A DNA stretch of 64,000 nt, taken from assembly GCA_022710485.1 (NCBI GenBank), contig JAKLGU010000004.1, positions 62,001 to 126,000 of the forward strand, read 5' to 3'. The notes under the pieces were generated by a model. The model was given only the letters and a program-made list of their open reading frames with translations, ran no database searches and was not told the origin of the DNA. The DNA is from Gemmatimonadota bacterium (GTDB lineage: Bacteria > Gemmatimonadota > Gemmatimonadetes > Gemmatimonadales > GWC2-71-9). The position numbers and the translations under genes were made by a program. This document shows, piece by piece, positions 50,692 through 57,629 of this stretch; the first letter of the stretch is position 1, and every line of letters begins with the position of its first letter.

Positions 50692-51645
50692 TCAAATTTC
50701 CCAATTGGAGAACAGGATGCCGGCGGTCGGCTGCTCCGGGAAACCCGCCAGCGTCATCCGGAGGTCGGTCCAGTGCGCCTGCCATCCGGCGGCGACGAGC
50801 GAGGCGTACGCCTCGCCCTGGGCCGTCTGGCACCGGACCGTGACCCGCTCCGCCCCGTCGGCGTCGGCCACCGATTCCACCGCGCCCAGCACCGCATGCA
50901 TGGCTGGCGGGTCCTCCGCCACGAGCTTGAGGACGCGCAGGTCCTCTATTGGCCGCCCCTGGGCGAGCGGCGTGATGTGCCAGAGCGCGAACGCCGCCAG
51001 CGCGCCGTCCCGGCGGTAGAGCGTAGTGTCGCCGATGCCGAGTTCGCCGGTCAGCCGAATCTCGTGCTCGAAGGACCTCCCCGCGGCCACCCGACCCGTC
51101 AGCGCGTTGCACTCGTCGATGACGGCGGCGGGTGCGGACTCGCGGGAGAGTCGGGTGCAGCCGGGGGTGGAGTTCGGCTCCGGCGCGCGTGCCACGGTGA
51201 CGGTGAGGTGGCCGGGGAGGAAGCCGAGCCGGCTGTAGAACCCGATGTTGTCCACGGTGCGGGGCATCGTCTCCAGCCCGATGGTCCGCGCGGACTGCGA
51301 CGTGAGCCACTCGACGCCGGCCTGCACAATCTGCCGCCCAAGTCCCTCCCCCTGGCGGTCGGGGCGCACGGCGAGGGGGCCCATCCACCCCTCGACGCCC
51401 GAGAGGTGTGCGAGGTTGAAGGCCACGATCTCGTCAGACTTGTCGCGCCAGACCATCGCGCCGCGCCCCGCCGATTCGAGTGCGAAGCGCCAGACCAGGT
51501 CGTTGAGGTGGGGGACGCGCACCCCGGGCATGCCGTCCCGCCGGTACCGGTCGGTGAACGCGTGCGAGAAGATCTTGTTCAGCGGGTCGATGTCCGCGAC
51601 GGTGGGGCGCTCGGGGCCACGGATCACGCGCTCACGCCGCCACAT
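50692..51645 (-). CDS. GNAT-family N-acetyltransferase
   Basis: A 317-residue protein. The N-terminal half is a GNAT domain with acetyl-CoA-binding VRPDRQGEGLGRQIV (about 93-107) and the IGFYSRLGF beta-bulge. The C-terminal half is a second, weaker acetyltransferase-like region without a clear Q/RxxGxG/A motif. Substrate unknown. Overlaps the sbcC 3' end by 14 bases. Confidence 0.85.
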   Translation of the reverse strand: MWRRERVIRGPERPTVADIDPLNKIFSHAFTDRYRRDGMPGVRVPHLNDLVWRFALESAGRGAMVWRDKSDEIVAFNLAHLSGVEGWMGPLAVRPDRQGEGLGRQIVQAGVEWLTSQSARTIGLETMPRTVDNIGFYSRLGFLPGHLTVTVARAPEPNSTPGCTRLSRESAPAAVIDECNALTGRVAAGRSFEHEIRLTGELGIGDTTLYRRDGALAAFALWHITPLAQGRPIEDLRVLKLVAEDPPAMHAVLGAVESVADADGAERVTVRCQTAQGEAYASLVAAGWQAHWTDLRMTLAGFPEQPTAGILFSNWEI

Positions 51646-54058
51646 CGCGTCCCCCTCCCTCGAGCGTCTCCTCGCGCACCACCGACACCCGGCGCCCCGG
51701 GTCCCGCTCGACGCGGATGATCCGGTCGAATCCTTCCCGCACCGCCTCGATGTGGGTGATGAGGACGACCTGCGGAAAGCGGTCGGCCAGGCTGCGGAGG
51801 AGGTCCATCACCGCGGCGCGGCGCTCCTCGTCGAGCGACCCGAAGATCTCGTCGAGCACCAGCAGCGAGAGCGGCTGCCCCGCCCGCTCCGCGATCATCT
51901 GGCTGATGGCGAGCCGGAGCGCGAGGTAGGCCACGTCCTCCTCGCCCCCGGAGATGACCGGCTTGACCTCGCCTTCGTCCACCAGTGTCGGCGTGTAGCT
52001 CTCGTCGAGCTCCAGGTCGGAGTAGCGGCCGTTGGTCAGGTCGCGCAGGAAGCTGGAGGCCAGCTCCGACAGGTCGGGCCGGAGCTGGGTGTTGAGGTCG
52101 GTGCGAAGGTCGGTGAGCGCCCGGTCAAGCTCCTGGGTGACGAGGAACCGCTGCTCGACCTGCTTCACCTCCTCCTCGCGATGCGTCCGTTCCGTGCGGC
52201 GCTGGGCCGCGGCGCGGGCGGCCTCGTCGGCCGTGGCCCGCTCGCCCTTCGCCTCGACCACCTGCAGCTCGGCGCGGCGGCGCTCCTCGTCGACGGCGGC
52301 CATCAAGGCGCGCACCTCCTCGAACACCGGCTCCGAAAACCCGAGTTCCTCGCGCTGATGCCGGAGCGCCGTCAACACCTCCTCGCGCGTGCTGACCGCC
52401 TGCTCGGCGGCCAGGAGCTCCGGTGCGAGCCGCGCGGCGCGCTCCGCCAGGGCCCGGTACCGCTCCGCCTCGAGCGCCTTCGCCTCCAGCGTCTTGAGCT
52501 CGAGCTGCACCTGCTTGTGCCGTTCGGGATCGTAGGTGCCCTCGGCACCCTGCAGCGAGGACTGCAGCTCCGCGATCGTCTTCTCCTGTCGGGCCCGCCG
52601 CTCGCGCAGGGCTGGCGCGTCCTTGAGCGGCGCCTCGAGCCGGCTGAGGGCTGCCGATGCCGCCTCGGCCGCCCCCTCGGCCTGCTCCCGCTGGCGCTCC
52701 AACTCCCGCACCTCCAGCGGCTCCTCCTCGAGCTGGTCGAGGCGCTGGCGGTAGAACTTCCCGTTGAACTTCACCTCCTCCAGCTGCCGTCCGAGCACGG
52801 CGAGCACCGGCTCGAAGTCCTTCCCCAGAGGACGGGAGCAGGTCGGGCAGGCGCCGTCCTGGCCTGCCGCCGTGATCCGGTCGAGTTGCTCCTGCAGGTC
52901 GGCGTACTGGTCGAGCAACGCCTGCCGCTTTGTCGTGGCGTCCTGCAGGTCGCGCACCCAGGTCGTGCGCTTCTCCTCCGCCAGCTCGGCAGCCGCGTTG
53001 GCCGCGGCGCGAGCGGCCGTGGCGGCGGAACGCGCCGCCTCCAGTTGATCCGCGGTGGGGAGCGCAGCAAGGCGCTGGTCGAGATCCGCGAGGGCGGCGC
53101 GGGCCGCCTCGATCCTGGCATGGAGCCCAGCCCGGTGCGACGACGCCGCGTACAACTGCTGCAGCGTCTCGTGCTCGGCCCGGAGCGCCGCCAGCGGCGC
53201 CAGCTCCTCGGCCAGCGCCGCGAGATGCGCCTGCGCCTGGAGCGCGTCGGCGATCTGCCGGTCGAGGTCCCGGGTCCGCTCCTGCGAGGTGGTGACCTGG
53301 TGCTCCGCGACGCGGATGTCGCCCTCGAGCGACTGCACCCGGGTCCGGAGCTGCTGCATCGCGTCCCAGCGCGGCGTGGCCTCGGCGAGGCGGAGGGCGG
53401 CCAGCCGCACCGCCTCCTGCGCATTCGCGTCCCGGTCGGCGGCGGCGGCGGCGAGCGCCGCCACCCGCTGCTCCTCCGCGTCGAGCGCCCCGGCATCGGG
53501 CAGGCCCGCTTGGAGCGCCTGCAGCCGGGCCCGCAGTTCACTGCGCGTCTCCTTCAGACGCTCCTGCGCGATGCGCAGCCGCTCGAACCCGAGCACCCGG
53601 GCCAGGAACTGCGCGCGCTCGGGGGCGCTCATCCTGGCCATGACCATCAGGTCTTTCTGACCGGTGAAGTAGGTGTTGAAGAACTCCGCCCGCGTCATCC
53701 CCAGCAGGTGCGAGAGCTTTTCGGTGACGGTGGCGAGGCTGTTGGCGATCGGCGCGGGATCGCCGTCCTGGAAGAGTTCCGCCTGGCTGAGGCTCCGGAC
53801 CACGCGGAATTCGTGCGCCCCCAACGCGAAGTCGAGCTCGACCCGGACCGGTGAGCGGGGCGGCGCGCCGCGGCGCCGGATCGACTCCCGGGTGCCACGC
53901 GCCGCCGGCGTTCCGTACATGGCGAAGGCGATCGCCTCGAGCAAGGTGGACTTGCCCGAGCCGTTGGCGCCCACGATACCGGTCAGGCCGGCGCCGAACA
54001 CGAGCTCGGAGTCCTCATGCTGCCGGAAGTTCACGAGCCGGAGGCGGTGGATCTGCAT
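51632..54058 (-). CDS. sbcC: SbcC/Rad50-type exonuclease subunit
   Basis: An 808-residue SMC-like ATPase. Walker A GANGSGKST at 30-38; long coiled coils flank a zinc hook CPTC near residue 406; the ABC signature region SGGEEDVAYLALRLA and Walker B LLVLDEIFGSLDEERR lie near the C-terminus. With SbcD it processes DNA ends and hairpins. At about 800 residues it is nearer to archaeal Rad50 than to E. coli SbcC (over 1000). ATG overlaps the sbcD stop as ATGA. Confidence 0.96.
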   Translation of the reverse strand: MQIHRLRLVNFRQHEDSELVFGAGLTGIVGANGSGKSTLLEAIAFAMYGTPAARGTRESIRRRGAPPRSPVRVELDFALGAHEFRVVRSLSQAELFQDGDPAPIANSLATVTEKLSHLLGMTRAEFFNTYFTGQKDLMVMARMSAPERAQFLARVLGFERLRIAQERLKETRSELRARLQALQAGLPDAGALDAEEQRVAALAAAAADRDANAQEAVRLAALRLAEATPRWDAMQQLRTRVQSLEGDIRVAEHQVTTSQERTRDLDRQIADALQAQAHLAALAEELAPLAALRAEHETLQQLYAASSHRAGLHARIEAARAALADLDQRLAALPTADQLEAARSAATAARAAANAAAELAEEKRTTWVRDLQDATTKRQALLDQYADLQEQLDRITAAGQDGACPTCSRPLGKDFEPVLAVLGRQLEEVKFNGKFYRQRLDQLEEEPLEVRELERQREQAEGAAEAASAALSRLEAPLKDAPALRERRARQEKTIAELQSSLQGAEGTYDPERHKQVQLELKTLEAKALEAERYRALAERAARLAPELLAAEQAVSTREEVLTALRHQREELGFSEPVFEEVRALMAAVDEERRRAELQVVEAKGERATADEAARAAAQRRTERTHREEEVKQVEQRFLVTQELDRALTDLRTDLNTQLRPDLSELASSFLRDLTNGRYSDLELDESYTPTLVDEGEVKPVISGGEEDVAYLALRLAISQMIAERAGQPLSLLVLDEIFGSLDEERRAAVMDLLRSLADRFPQVVLITHIEAVREGFDRIIRVERDPGRRVSVVREETLEGGGRDVAA

Positions 54059-55236
54059 CAGTCTTCCGCCAGCTCGCGTTCGGCGGATGCGACGAGTTCC
54101 ACCCCTTCGTTCACGAACGCCGCGCGGTCGATCCCGGCGGGCAGCTGGCGCCGGCTGAGGTAGTCCTGGACGATGTCGGGCAGCGTCTGGCGCCGACCCG
54201 GCGCACCGACGCCGGTGATCCGGGTCGGCTCCGGTCGCCGCAGGTCGAGCTGGAAGTGCAGCGCCTCCGCCTTCCATCCCCGGAGCACGGCGTGATCGAG
54301 CTGACGGCCCACGTGCCGAGGCACCCCGGTCACGACCAGTCGCACCACCTGGTCGGCGATGCCGCCGGGGACGGCCGCCACCCGATCGGAGATCGCCGCC
54401 TGCAGCTCTTCCGCGGACATGTCGCTGCCGTCGAGCCGGGGCAGGTCCAGCACCCGCCGCGCCGGGATGATCGGCCGCGGTTCCGCGATGCCGGTGTCGA
54501 GGTTCACGAGCAGCCACGACTTGCCCGCCACCCCCTTCTCCGCCTCGTCTCGCAGTTCGCCCCAGGGATTCGTACTCACGTATTCGAGCGAGCCGCAGTA
54601 CCAGGCGCGGGGCCCGAGCTCGGTCTGCACGTGATAGTGGCCGAACGCCACGTAGCTCCACTCGCCGGGGCCGAACTCGTCGGCGCGGACCAGCGCGCCG
54701 CCGTACTCCACCGTGGACCGGTCGGACGGGAAGACACCGTCCACCTCGCCGTGGGCCACGAGCACCTCGTAGCGCGCACTGCCGTCAGGCCGGAGGACCG
54801 GTCGCTCGGCCTGCGCCAGTGCCTCGTGCGGCACGGCCAGGACGCTGAGCTCCAGCTGGGGGTAGCTGAAGCGCCGCGCCTCGTGCGTCGCGACGTCCAC
54901 GCCGAGCTCGTCGAAGAGGCGGAGGATGCTGCCGGTCTCGGTGGAACGGGGCGTGTCGTGGTTGCCGGCGATCAGGACGATCGGCGCGTCGGGCAGATCC
55001 GCGCGGATGCGCTGGAACTGCTGGAAGGCGAAGACGATGGCAGCATTGGTGGGACGGACCGAGTGGAACAGATCGCCGGCCACGATGACGGCGTCGGGCC
55101 GCGCCGCGAGCACGCCGTCCACCGCCTGGCGGAAGGCGAGGGCGGTGTCCGCCTCACGCTGGTTGATGCCGGCGGGAGTCTGCCGATGATATTGCCGGAA
55201 GCCGAGATGCAGGTCGGCGAGGTGCGCGATTTTCAC
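54058..55236 (-). CDS. sbcD: SbcD/Mre11-type nuclease subunit
   Basis: A 392-residue metallophosphoesterase nuclease. The metal-binding motifs of Mre11 are present: ADLHLG (about 6-11), GDLFH (about 52-56), GNHD (about 90-93), HGEVDG and GHYH. GTG at 55236 gives VKIAHLADLHLG, the standard N-terminus; a longer TTG-initiated form has no family support. Coupled to sbcC and 54 bases downstream of herA. Confidence 0.95.
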   Translation of the reverse strand: MKIAHLADLHLGFRQYHRQTPAGINQREADTALAFRQAVDGVLAARPDAVIVAGDLFHSVRPTNAAIVFAFQQFQRIRADLPDAPIVLIAGNHDTPRSTETGSILRLFDELGVDVATHEARRFSYPQLELSVLAVPHEALAQAERPVLRPDGSARYEVLVAHGEVDGVFPSDRSTVEYGGALVRADEFGPGEWSYVAFGHYHVQTELGPRAWYCGSLEYVSTNPWGELRDEAEKGVAGKSWLLVNLDTGIAEPRPIIPARRVLDLPRLDGSDMSAEELQAAISDRVAAVPGGIADQVVRLVVTGVPRHVGRQLDHAVLRGWKAEALHFQLDLRRPEPTRITGVGAPGRRQTLPDIVQDYLSRRQLPAGIDRAAFVNEGVELVASAERELAED

Positions 55237-55290
55237 AGGTAGGAGAATGCGCCGCCCGGGGGCGGGGGGCAAGGCGGCAGGAGCGTCGGC

Positions 55291-57132
55291 CTAGGAGGAA
55301 TACGGATCGGCGGTGCCCCGGAGCGGGATCACCCCGGTCCTGCGGGTGACGAGCTCCGGCTCGACCCGTCGGCCCAGCGCCGCCGTGAAGTAGGCCAGGA
55401 CATCGTCGGGACGCAGCTGCCGGGTGCGGGCGAGCGCCCGGCGCACGTCGTCCTCCCGCCGCCCATCCACGATCGCGCGGACCCGGTCCGTCGCGATCCC
55501 CGGGTCCATCGAGCGGAGCTGGCGGGCCACCGCCTCGTCGAAGGGGAGGTCGGGCGCGGGCGGGAACCGCTCCACGCCCTCGCGGCCGGAGAGAACGCAG
55601 GGCCTGGGAAAGCGGAGGAACACCGGCTGGGTGAAGTGAGGATGCCGCACCATCAGCTCGCCCTTCGGCAGCGTGGCGAGCTTGATCTTGGTGGCCGGCG
55701 AGAGGGTCGCGTAGCCGGCGGTGGCCAGTTCATCAGGATCCATCCGGCCGTAGATGGTGGTCCCCGCGTTGCCGACCACCCGCCGAAGCACCTGCGATCG
55801 AAACTGCTGGGCGGAGAACAGCACGAGCCCCAGGTACCGACCGCGCTCCGACAAGTCCAGCAACATCTTCCGTACGTAGGTGTCCGGACCGTCGGCGGGC
55901 GCGTATTTGTTGAGTTCGTCCACGAACACGACCACGTGGTCCACACCGAGGTCCCGGCGCTCGAGGTGCTCGCGGAGCTTGCTGACCACGCGCGCGAAGA
56001 CGAGGTCCTGCGCCAGCGGATCCACGCTCGCCACGTCCACCACGTACACCGAGCGGTCCGCGAAGGCGCCCCAGGGGAGGTCGTTCGAGGCGCCGTCGTC
56101 GGTCACCAGCCCCTTGGCCCGGGTAGTGATGTTGCCGAGCCGGTTCCGGACCTTCCGGATTGTGGCGATGTGGTGCGTCCGCCAGATGTCGCCGCGATTG
56201 CTGTTCTCCAGGGAGTCGAAGATGGCGCGGAAGAACGCCTCGAGGTCGGCGAAGGTCAGCACCCGCCACTCCTGAGGGTGCAGCTCCGGCGCCTGGAAGT
56301 CGCGGCCGACCACCCGGTCCGCCAGAAAATCGATGAACGCGTCCGCCTTCGCGTCCAGGTCATCCCGGTTGAGGACGACCTCGGCGTACTCCAACACCTC
56401 CCGCAATCCCCAGGTCAACGGCTCGGTGTTGGCGGCCAGGTCCGGGTGTGTGCGCAGCGTGTTGAGGTTGACGCCGTCGGGCTTGCAGGGGGCGTAGTAC
56501 CGCACGTTGTCGAACGGCGTGGGCGACAAGCCGAGCCGGGCGTAGGAGGCGAGGTCTTCAGTCGACAACTCCGCCGGCTGGTCGAGAAAGCAGAGGTCGG
56601 GGCCCTTCACGTTGAAGCAGAGCGCGGCCACCGACCCCTTGTGCGCCGGGAACGTCTGGAAGATGCTGGCGAGCAGGAACTCCACGGCGCTCGTCTTCGT
56701 GGCCAAGCCCGACACGCCGGTGATGTTGAGGTGCGCCGCCTCGGGACCGAGGAGGAAATCGGCGTCGAGATACACCGGGGCGGCCAGCCCGGCGGAGCCA
56801 TAGGTGCCGACCGGAATGCCAGTGCCACGATTGCCACCGGTGTAGCCGTCCATCCGGAGGGCCATGCGCACGTCGTCGTCGGTGGCCATGCGCACTTCAC
56901 CCAGGGGCACCGGCTGGAGCGGCTCCTCCGGGTCCTGGCGGAGCACGGCGGCGGTGTAGAGCCGAGTTTCGTCGTAGGCCGCCGCGTCCATGACGACCCC
57001 GAACACCACCCGCCCGGGGGCGTCCACGCGCACGATGGCGCCGACCCCCACGGGAGATTCCCGAGCGGCCGTGAAATGGAATTGGTGTGGGGTGGAGGGC
57101 CGGGCCTCGGTGGCGACGACGCGGCCGATCAG
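55291..57132 (-). CDS. herA: HerA-like ATPase, probable CTG start
   Basis: A 613-residue hexameric-translocase-type ATPase (HerA/DUF87). Walker A GVSGLATKT (about 139-147), Walker B VVVFVDELNKYAP (about 410-422), and a C-terminal Arg-rich domain. Without extension the first usable codon is GTG 57051, which removes part of the conserved N-terminal HAS-barrel. Reading upstream gives IGRVVATEARPSTPHQFHF, a typical HerA start. The only plausible initiation codon there is CTG at 57132-57130, which overlaps the upstream stop as CTGA. In archaea HerA works with Mre11, Rad50 and NurA. Confidence 0.85.
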   Translation of the reverse strand: MIGRVVATEARPSTPHQFHFTAARESPVGVGAIVRVDAPGRVVFGVVMDAAAYDETRLYTAAVLRQDPEEPLQPVPLGEVRMATDDDVRMALRMDGYTGGNRGTGIPVGTYGSAGLAAPVYLDADFLLGPEAAHLNITGVSGLATKTSAVEFLLASIFQTFPAHKGSVAALCFNVKGPDLCFLDQPAELSTEDLASYARLGLSPTPFDNVRYYAPCKPDGVNLNTLRTHPDLAANTEPLTWGLREVLEYAEVVLNRDDLDAKADAFIDFLADRVVGRDFQAPELHPQEWRVLTFADLEAFFRAIFDSLENSNRGDIWRTHHIATIRKVRNRLGNITTRAKGLVTDDGASNDLPWGAFADRSVYVVDVASVDPLAQDLVFARVVSKLREHLERRDLGVDHVVVFVDELNKYAPADGPDTYVRKMLLDLSERGRYLGLVLFSAQQFRSQVLRRVVGNAGTTIYGRMDPDELATAGYATLSPATKIKLATLPKGELMVRHPHFTQPVFLRFPRPCVLSGREGVERFPPAPDLPFDEAVARQLRSMDPGIATDRVRAIVDGRREDDVRRALARTRQLRPDDVLAYFTAALGRRVEPELVTRRTGVIPLRGTADPYSS

Positions 57133-57629
57133 GTCGGGGCGAATGGCGGGACCTCCGTCAGCCAGAACCCCGCGAGGCGGCGCTTGTGGTCGAGCTCCAC
57201 GAGCAGGTGATCGGCGACGCGCACCACCTCGACGTCGCGGCGACCCCCGATGCGCAGGTGGACGACCTTTTCATCTGGCGTGGCCGACACGGAGAGTGTC
57301 GTGTCCACCTCCACGGCCGAAACGACCTGCCGCGCCGACTTGGTGGGGAGGACCACCCGTCCGCTCCGCGCGCCGGCGGGCGGGGCCAGCCCCGGCACGG
57401 TGTCCACCTCGGGCCAGACCACGACGTCGAGGCCGCAGAGCACGCCGCCGGCCACGTCGAGGACGACCACCGATCCCTCTTCATCCGAGAGCTCGACGCT
57501 CCCCTCCTGGCCGCCATCGACCAGGGCCGCGCGGAATCCGCCGGAGAGGATATCGGTCTCGACGTCCCACCGCCATTCCACGGTCGGCAGCCGTCCCTCG
57601 AGCGGTTCGACGCGGGTATCGATGTTCAT
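57129..57629 (-). CDS. Uncharacterised protein upstream of HerA
   Basis: A 166-residue soluble protein of unknown family. It is beta-rich, with repeated short hydrophobic strands (GSVVVLDVAGGVLCGLDVVV), and a C-terminal segment VVRVADHLLVELDHKRRLAGFWL that loosely resembles DUF2283. It has no visible nuclease motif, so it is not an obvious NurA. Nine bases downstream of the aminotransferase gene; its stop overlaps the proposed herA CTG start. Confidence 0.65.
   Translation of the reverse strand: MNIDTRVEPLEGRLPTVEWRWDVETDILSGGFRAALVDGGQEGSVELSDEEGSVVVLDVAGGVLCGLDVVVWPEVDTVPGLAPPAGARSGRVVLPTKSARQVVSAVEVDTTLSVSATPDEKVVHLRIGGRRDVEVVRVADHLLVELDHKRRLAGFWLTEVPPFAPT

Follow-up and report, generated by a model that had tools for sequence, protein, structure and literature searches.

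The herA gene of this Gemmatimonadota genus probably starts at an ATT codon (position 57144, minus strand) that is selected by a perfect GGAGGT Shine-Dalgarno (SD) sequence 6 nt upstream and that lies where herA and the preceding gene overlap by 16 nt. The window is the whole 64,000-nt stretch of DNA that was analysed, and the features around the herA junction are as follows.

57129 to 57629, minus strand: upstream gene, 166 aa, without a Pfam or NCBIfam match; C-terminus ...FWLTEVPPFAPT
57151 to 57156, minus strand: GGAGGT Shine-Dalgarno, spaced 6 nt from ATT and 18 nt from CTG; -10.7 kcal/mol; kept in 3/3 species of the genus
57142 to 57144, minus strand: ATT, proposed herA start codon, in frame and 5 codons before the IGRVVATE anchor
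57130 to 57132, minus strand: CTG, rival start put forward in the original prediction; SD energy +1.9 kcal/mol; TTG in congener G001, CTG in congener G002
57129 to 57131, minus strand: TGA, stop of the upstream gene; overlaps CTG by 2 nt and begins 10 nt after the ATT codon
57049 to 57051, minus strand: GTG, first standard start in the herA frame (residue 32); a start there removes 31 residues including IGRVVATE
55291 to 57144, minus strand: herA, 617 codons from ATT plus stop; match to HerA of PDB 7f6d (E 2e-53, profile A1)
54058 to 55242, minus strand: downstream gene with a calcineurin-like phosphoesterase domain (PF00149, E 4.8e-12), presumably Mre11/SbcD-like
51632 to 54058, minus strand: downstream gene with SMC_N/AAA_23/SbcC Walker B domains (PF02463, E 4e-21; PF13558), presumably Rad50/SbcC-like

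The original prediction held that no ATG, GTG or TTG is in frame upstream of GTG 57051, and reading of the herA frame bore this out. Ahead of the I of IGRVVATE the frame stays open for 47 codons, and none of the three codons occurs from the preceding in-frame stop to GTG 57051. The 31 codons from ATT 57144 to GTG 57051 contain the conserved HerA N-terminus; the herA-frame segment ahead of the GTG includes IGRVVATEARPSTPHQF, and the product made from ATT 57144 would begin fMet-RPDLIGRVVATE. On the minus strand positions 57132-57129 read CTGA, the TGA of which closes the open reading frame 57629-57129. ATT 57144 is four codons upstream of CTG 57132, with both in frame and no stop between them. 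The original prediction had placed the start at this CTG; ATT 57144 with GGAGGT at 57156-57151 is a feature that was absent from it.

The genus was sampled with three genomes from three species, the window genome (G000), G001 (locus SPDF01000176.1) and G002 (locus JAHECL010000057.1). The arrangement of GGAGGT, six bases and ATT was found in all three species. SD duplex energies were calculated against what we take to be the anti-SD sequence at the 16S 3' end and came to -10.7 kcal/mol at ATT in each species, so that in every one of them ATT is, of the start-like codons in this part of the herA frame, the one with the best SD. At the codon directly before the anchor (position -1) the energy was +1.9 kcal/mol in the window (CTG), +1.9 in G001 (TTG) and +0.7 in G002 (CTG). 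The TTG of G001 is the sole standard start there. As at infC, the gene for initiation factor IF3, herA combines the lack of a standard start before the conserved N-terminus with a strong SD at proper spacing, and codon and SD are conserved in 3/3 species. From the absence of standard starts, the conserved SD and ATT and the start positions of relatives, we infer that ATT is the codon actually used.

Base rates were taken from 343 genes called roughly, with an ad hoc gene caller, in 464 kb. An SD of -10 kcal/mol or stronger preceded 5 of 320 internal in-frame ATT codons and 377 of 15550 internal start-like codons of any kind. Five non-standard near-cognate codons lie in the herA frame ahead of the anchor region, resulting in about a 12% chance that one of them has such an SD; conservation and position lower this chance, though the three species are related. 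When the 343 genes were scanned for non-standard codons that precede the first standard start and have an SD of -9 or stronger, 12 candidates emerged, most of them unconvincing. It also counts against ATT 57144 that overlaps of 16 nt are less frequent than those of 4 nt and that ATT is a very weak start, with an efficiency of about 0.3% of the best start as cited in a passage of PMC10666635.

The overlap itself carries unusual codon conservation. Over codons 2-13 from the end of the upstream gene, the three species agree at 9 of 10 degenerate codons with a conserved amino acid, compared with 9/27 over codons 14-46 from the end (Fisher p 0.003) and 220/504 in HerA itself (p 0.004), in a comparison where the conserved region was picked post hoc and the three congeners are not independent. 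None of 495 runs of 10 such codons in HerA reached 9 identical. The Pro codon that gives the A of ATT is CCA in 3/3 species, a codon used for 533 of 8273 Pro residues in the 464 kb. GGAGG combined with CCATT occurred in none of the 16 upstream-gene homologues with codons compared (18 homologues were found outside the genus). The Phe codon TTC that follows CCA lies in a VPxF motif, and this Phe is present in 15 of the 18 homologues outside the genus. Changing ATT to ATG would turn the Phe TTC into Cys TGC, and the start may have stayed ATT because this T to G change would alter a conserved residue of the upstream protein. The upstream gene would, on such a history, have been drawn onto herA and the start then held at ATT.

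The comparison was extended to orthologues outside the genus. HerA was matched by protein search in 84 of 101 genomes and at 75 loci of a genome collection, and by record title the relatives are Gemmatimonadota of various ranks, bar one. After removal of duplicates and one spurious locus, 80 distinct loci with the anchor remained, the window included. A standard start codon occupied the ATT position (-5) in 9/80 loci and the CTG position (-1) in 4/80. Other positions were common, with -9 occupied in at least 21/80 when at most the last four start codons of each locus are counted, and since start positions vary this widely among relatives, -5 is not the family rule. Eleven junction regions were compared, two of them from congeners, and in 10/11 the upstream gene lay within about 2.2 kb upstream of herA. 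Outside the genus its stop was no more than 63 nt from the anchor in three (G036, G055 and G023). G036 and G055, which belong to one genus (g35, represented here by these two genomes and not by its third, G171), have the upstream gene adjacent, and each carries GTG at -5, which in G036 forms a GTGA overlap. In G023 the upstream gene lies at a distance of 63 nt and the GTG stands at -9. Five other regions have 660 to 2173 nt between the two genes, and the region compared from G060 does not contain the upstream gene. Comparing start codons among orthologues with the same gene order was the check suggested for the CTG; it favours the ATT position, with GTG there in two of the three relatives from other genera whose upstream gene is close. 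The orthologue comparison, on two related species, thus points to the ATT position.

Termination-reinitiation within the CTGA overlap, with CTG 57132 as the start, is an unlikely alternative that nevertheless has several observations in its favour. The original prediction had likened this overlap to the ATGA and GTGA overlaps of many genes, and such overlaps are indeed common. Among 60 same-strand junctions in the -4 register there were 25 GTGA, 19 ATGA, 13 CTGA, 2 CTAG and 1 GTAA, with ATGA or GTGA at 44/60; this register is the commonest coupled junction. One congener (G001) has a standard start, TTG, at the same place, and three loci outside the genus have ATG at -1. An SD weaker than -3 was found at 7 of the 44 ATGA/GTGA starts (16%), and a missing SD therefore does not by itself exclude reinitiation. 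Against CTG, there is no SD pairing at this codon in any of the three species, and the conservation of the SD and ATT is left unexplained. The upstream TGA dictates the NTG, and C stands there in 13/60 junctions, so that CTGA alone carries little weight. Replacing the C or T by A would leave the upstream protein unchanged (its last codons are ACC, ATT and CTC), yet 0/3 species have the A. With no SD and this high base rate of CTGA, CTG 57132 was demoted as the main start.

Non-standard starts elsewhere in the lineage were examined at infC and truB. infC was looked up in 61 genomes, of which 59 had a match, and 30 loci were compared (25 from f1, the window's family, 3 from f3 and 2 from f2). 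The gene was located in 24/25 f1 loci, and a CTG near the conserved N-terminus had the strongest SD in 23 of the 24, the other being a TTG. The SD at these CTG codons ranged from -15.3 to -4.3 and was -9 or stronger in 21 of 23. In 11/23 of these loci the frame also has an ATG, GTG or TTG farther upstream (within 25 codons), four of the 11 having an SD of -6 or stronger, and in those 11 the CTG is the best candidate, not the only one. In the window genome the upstream alternative is a TTG with an SD of -0.2. ATT with a strong SD appears to start infC in f3 (3/3 loci) and in one of two f2 loci of the same order, with ATG in the second. It counts against the ATT of herA that the apparent non-standard infC start in the window's own family is CTG and not ATT.

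The scan for non-standard codons also led to truB. This gene lies outside the window (L145:8627-9475, corresponding to G000:C1:108627-109475) and has a CTGA overlap with rbfA and an SD of -10.3. It follows rbfA in the window genome, where both were identified with the Pfam TruB_N and RBFA models; elsewhere the overlap was read from the stop in register. Among the first 30 orthologous loci CTGA was present in 21/21 from f1, 5/5 from f3 and 0/4 from f2. In 43 further loci, one of which (f1) was too short, it was present in 7/8 from f1 and 0/2 from f2, and the 32 loci of seven other families had ATGA, GTGA or TTGA in 26, CTGA in 1 and none of these in 5. The loci were partly best matches and partly chosen from different genera, not a random sample, and on them CTGA is near-fixed in f1 and f3, while GTGA or ATGA predominates among the loci examined from the class's other families. 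truB was not matched in congener G001. Only one of the 28 f1 CTGA loci (L200) has standard codons ahead of the CTG as well; in 11 others a GTG or TTG precedes the DKP motif by two or three codons, and a start there would shorten the conserved N-terminus. truB appears to start at CTG in the CTGA overlap, with an SD range in f1 of -12.3 to -2.2.

Because the non-standard codons of infC and truB come with SD pairing, ATT fits the pattern at herA and CTG does not: the SD energy of the herA CTG falls outside the ranges of the 23 f1 infC CTGs and the 28 f1 truB CTGs. At the same time the presence of CTGA at truB in 28/29 evaluable loci of the same family makes the CTG mechanism plausible there, and for that reason we keep CTG 57132 as an unlikely start beside the probable ATT. 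The proposal that HerA initiates at CTG thus holds in calling for a non-standard start upstream of 57051, and the codon it chose is the less supported one. Its general idea, CTG initiation in a CTGA overlap, is supported in this lineage at truB, and at herA the CTG lacks an SD. A general habit of CTG starts was considered and rejected: of the 13 CTGA junctions in the 464 kb, judged by reading start lists with sequence inspected for five, only herA and truB are without a plausible standard start nearby.

Use of both ATT and the CTG/TTG, resulting in two HerA forms, one four residues longer than the other, is quite improbable. The two codons are in frame with no stop between, but nothing in the data speaks for a dual start directly and the arguments against CTG apply to it equally.

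A start at GTG 57051, with the segment ahead of it untranslated, is very unlikely. This GTG is the first standard in-frame start and has a weak SD (-4.3), but the segment that precedes it is conserved, and on that ground it was rejected. A tblastn search with the first 61 HerA residues placed the segment in 104/106 loci, two of these being the window itself and one (L104) being spurious and without the anchor. Orthologues lacking the segment had been named in advance as evidence against an upstream start, and the placement of nearly all loci goes the other way. In 77/80 distinct loci a standard start codon is found no more than 25 codons ahead of the anchor, the exceptions being the window, congener G002, which has no standard start until codon +32, and a locus cut by a contig end (L096). 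In this last locus (L096:1-130) the only candidate is a CTG at -16 with an SD of -9.3, and the real start may be missing. Over codons 0 to +25 third positions accounted for 9/16 of the differences between G000 and G002, 9/11 between G001 and G002 and only 5/10 between G000 and G001. The claim that the conserved HerA N-terminus is encoded upstream of the first GTG was upheld, with solved HerA aligning across the segment and relatives keeping it. From these comparisons the N-terminal segment is very likely protein, and HerA very likely begins upstream of 57051, in the window and G002 at a codon other than ATG, GTG or TTG.

Least probable of all is a fusion by -1 frameshifting from the upstream gene, or a sequencing or assembly error hiding an ATG, as the open frame for 47 codons ahead of the anchor would permit, against which stand a junction identical in layout across three genomes, a standard start codon of their own in 77/80 loci and an RNA fold at the junction that does not go beyond shuffled sequences (z 0.94).

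The identity of the protein was assessed with profile A1, built from 11 sequences. In a search of solved proteins HerA (7f6d) was the single match below E 0.001. The alignment to 7f6d_B consists of two stretches covering the N-terminus and both ATPase regions and begins at IGRVVATE of the window protein. The TKTS variant of the P-loop is common to the window protein and HerA of PDB 7f6d, 7wrw and 7wrx. The HAS-barrel model PF09378 matched the window protein at E 0.0078 and the G002 orthologue (L033) at E 0.00046, both below the curated cut-off, and did not match a third relative (L072); the sub-threshold alignment starts at residue 16, ahead of GTG 57051. A PADLOC mad8 match to HerA (E 2.5e-8) was taken as a shared ATPase fold and not as a defence system. 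Unlike both congeners, the window HerA is without about 25 residues of a loop (56960-56980, minus strand, at HerA residues about 57-60), which is also present in the consensus of 11 relatives, and it has FHFT where both congeners have FHFW. Metallophos and SMC/SbcC genes directly downstream give HerA an Mre11/Rad50-like neighbourhood. The upstream gene was matched in 44/61 genomes.

Initiation at ATT 57144 could proceed as follows. Ribosomes translating the upstream gene would keep the SD open to binding. Either a 30S subunit or a ribosome fresh from termination at the TGA, 10 nt farther along, would bind GGAGGT and so bring ATT into the P site. ATT would be decoded by initiator tRNA with fMet, and with inefficient initiation low herA expression would be expected. 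Upstream translation probably helps herA expression through coupling. IF3 would be expected to disfavour the ATT start, as reported for infC and sigR.

Comparable starts have been described in other systems. Passages of PMC5472188 report an ATT start for infC in E. coli and an ATC start in Streptomyces, with autoregulation by IF3. The start is non-standard in both infC and herA, and the ATT is identical in E. coli infC; infC encodes a translation factor that regulates itself, whereas herA encodes a DNA-repair ATPase, sits in an overlap and has its start read from sequence. The same source describes sigR of Streptomyces, whose GTC start is repressed by IF3 as proven by mutation and protein analysis. 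Like herA, sigR is a gene other than infC with a non-standard start missed by annotation; its codon is GTC. In S. aureus, starts with extended SDs were mapped by retapamulin ribosome profiling at cvfC1 (AUU) and ccpN (AUA), and an effect of IF3 on them is discussed, according to sections of PMC13009471. These share with herA an AUU or AUA start with a strong SD outside infC, but S. aureus belongs to a different phylum and neither gene is HerA. Overlaps of -4 nt and termination-reinitiation are described in parts of PMC10666635 and PMC12548453. Stop and start of neighbouring genes overlap in both those cases and herA, making coupling likely, and herA differs in its 16-nt overlap and non-standard start. 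Among the papers listed by searches of an open-licence literature collection, which does not cover all that is in print, there was no earlier report of a non-standard herA start and none with the phrase CTG start codon for truB/rbfA; for Gemmatimonadetes no paper came up on infC start codons, and for Gemmatimonas none on CTG starts. The ATT of herA would be a new case of a known phenomenon, the SD-driven non-standard start as in infC.

It is conceivable, though we consider it doubtful, that a few genes of the lineage are held under start-codon control by IF3, namely infC (CTG), truB (CTG) and, in one genus, herA (ATT). If true, ribosome-factor levels would tune tRNA modification and DNA-end repair via non-standard starts. 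A gene caller that recognises no start but ATG, GTG and TTG would make the annotated herA 31 residues too short here. The apparent CTG start of truB, in an overlap conserved across two families, would make natural bacterial CTG initiation testable against families with GTG in the same register. An ATT start that is conserved outside infC and kept in place by an overlapping gene would offer a clean case in which to test how overlaps limit the choice of start codon.
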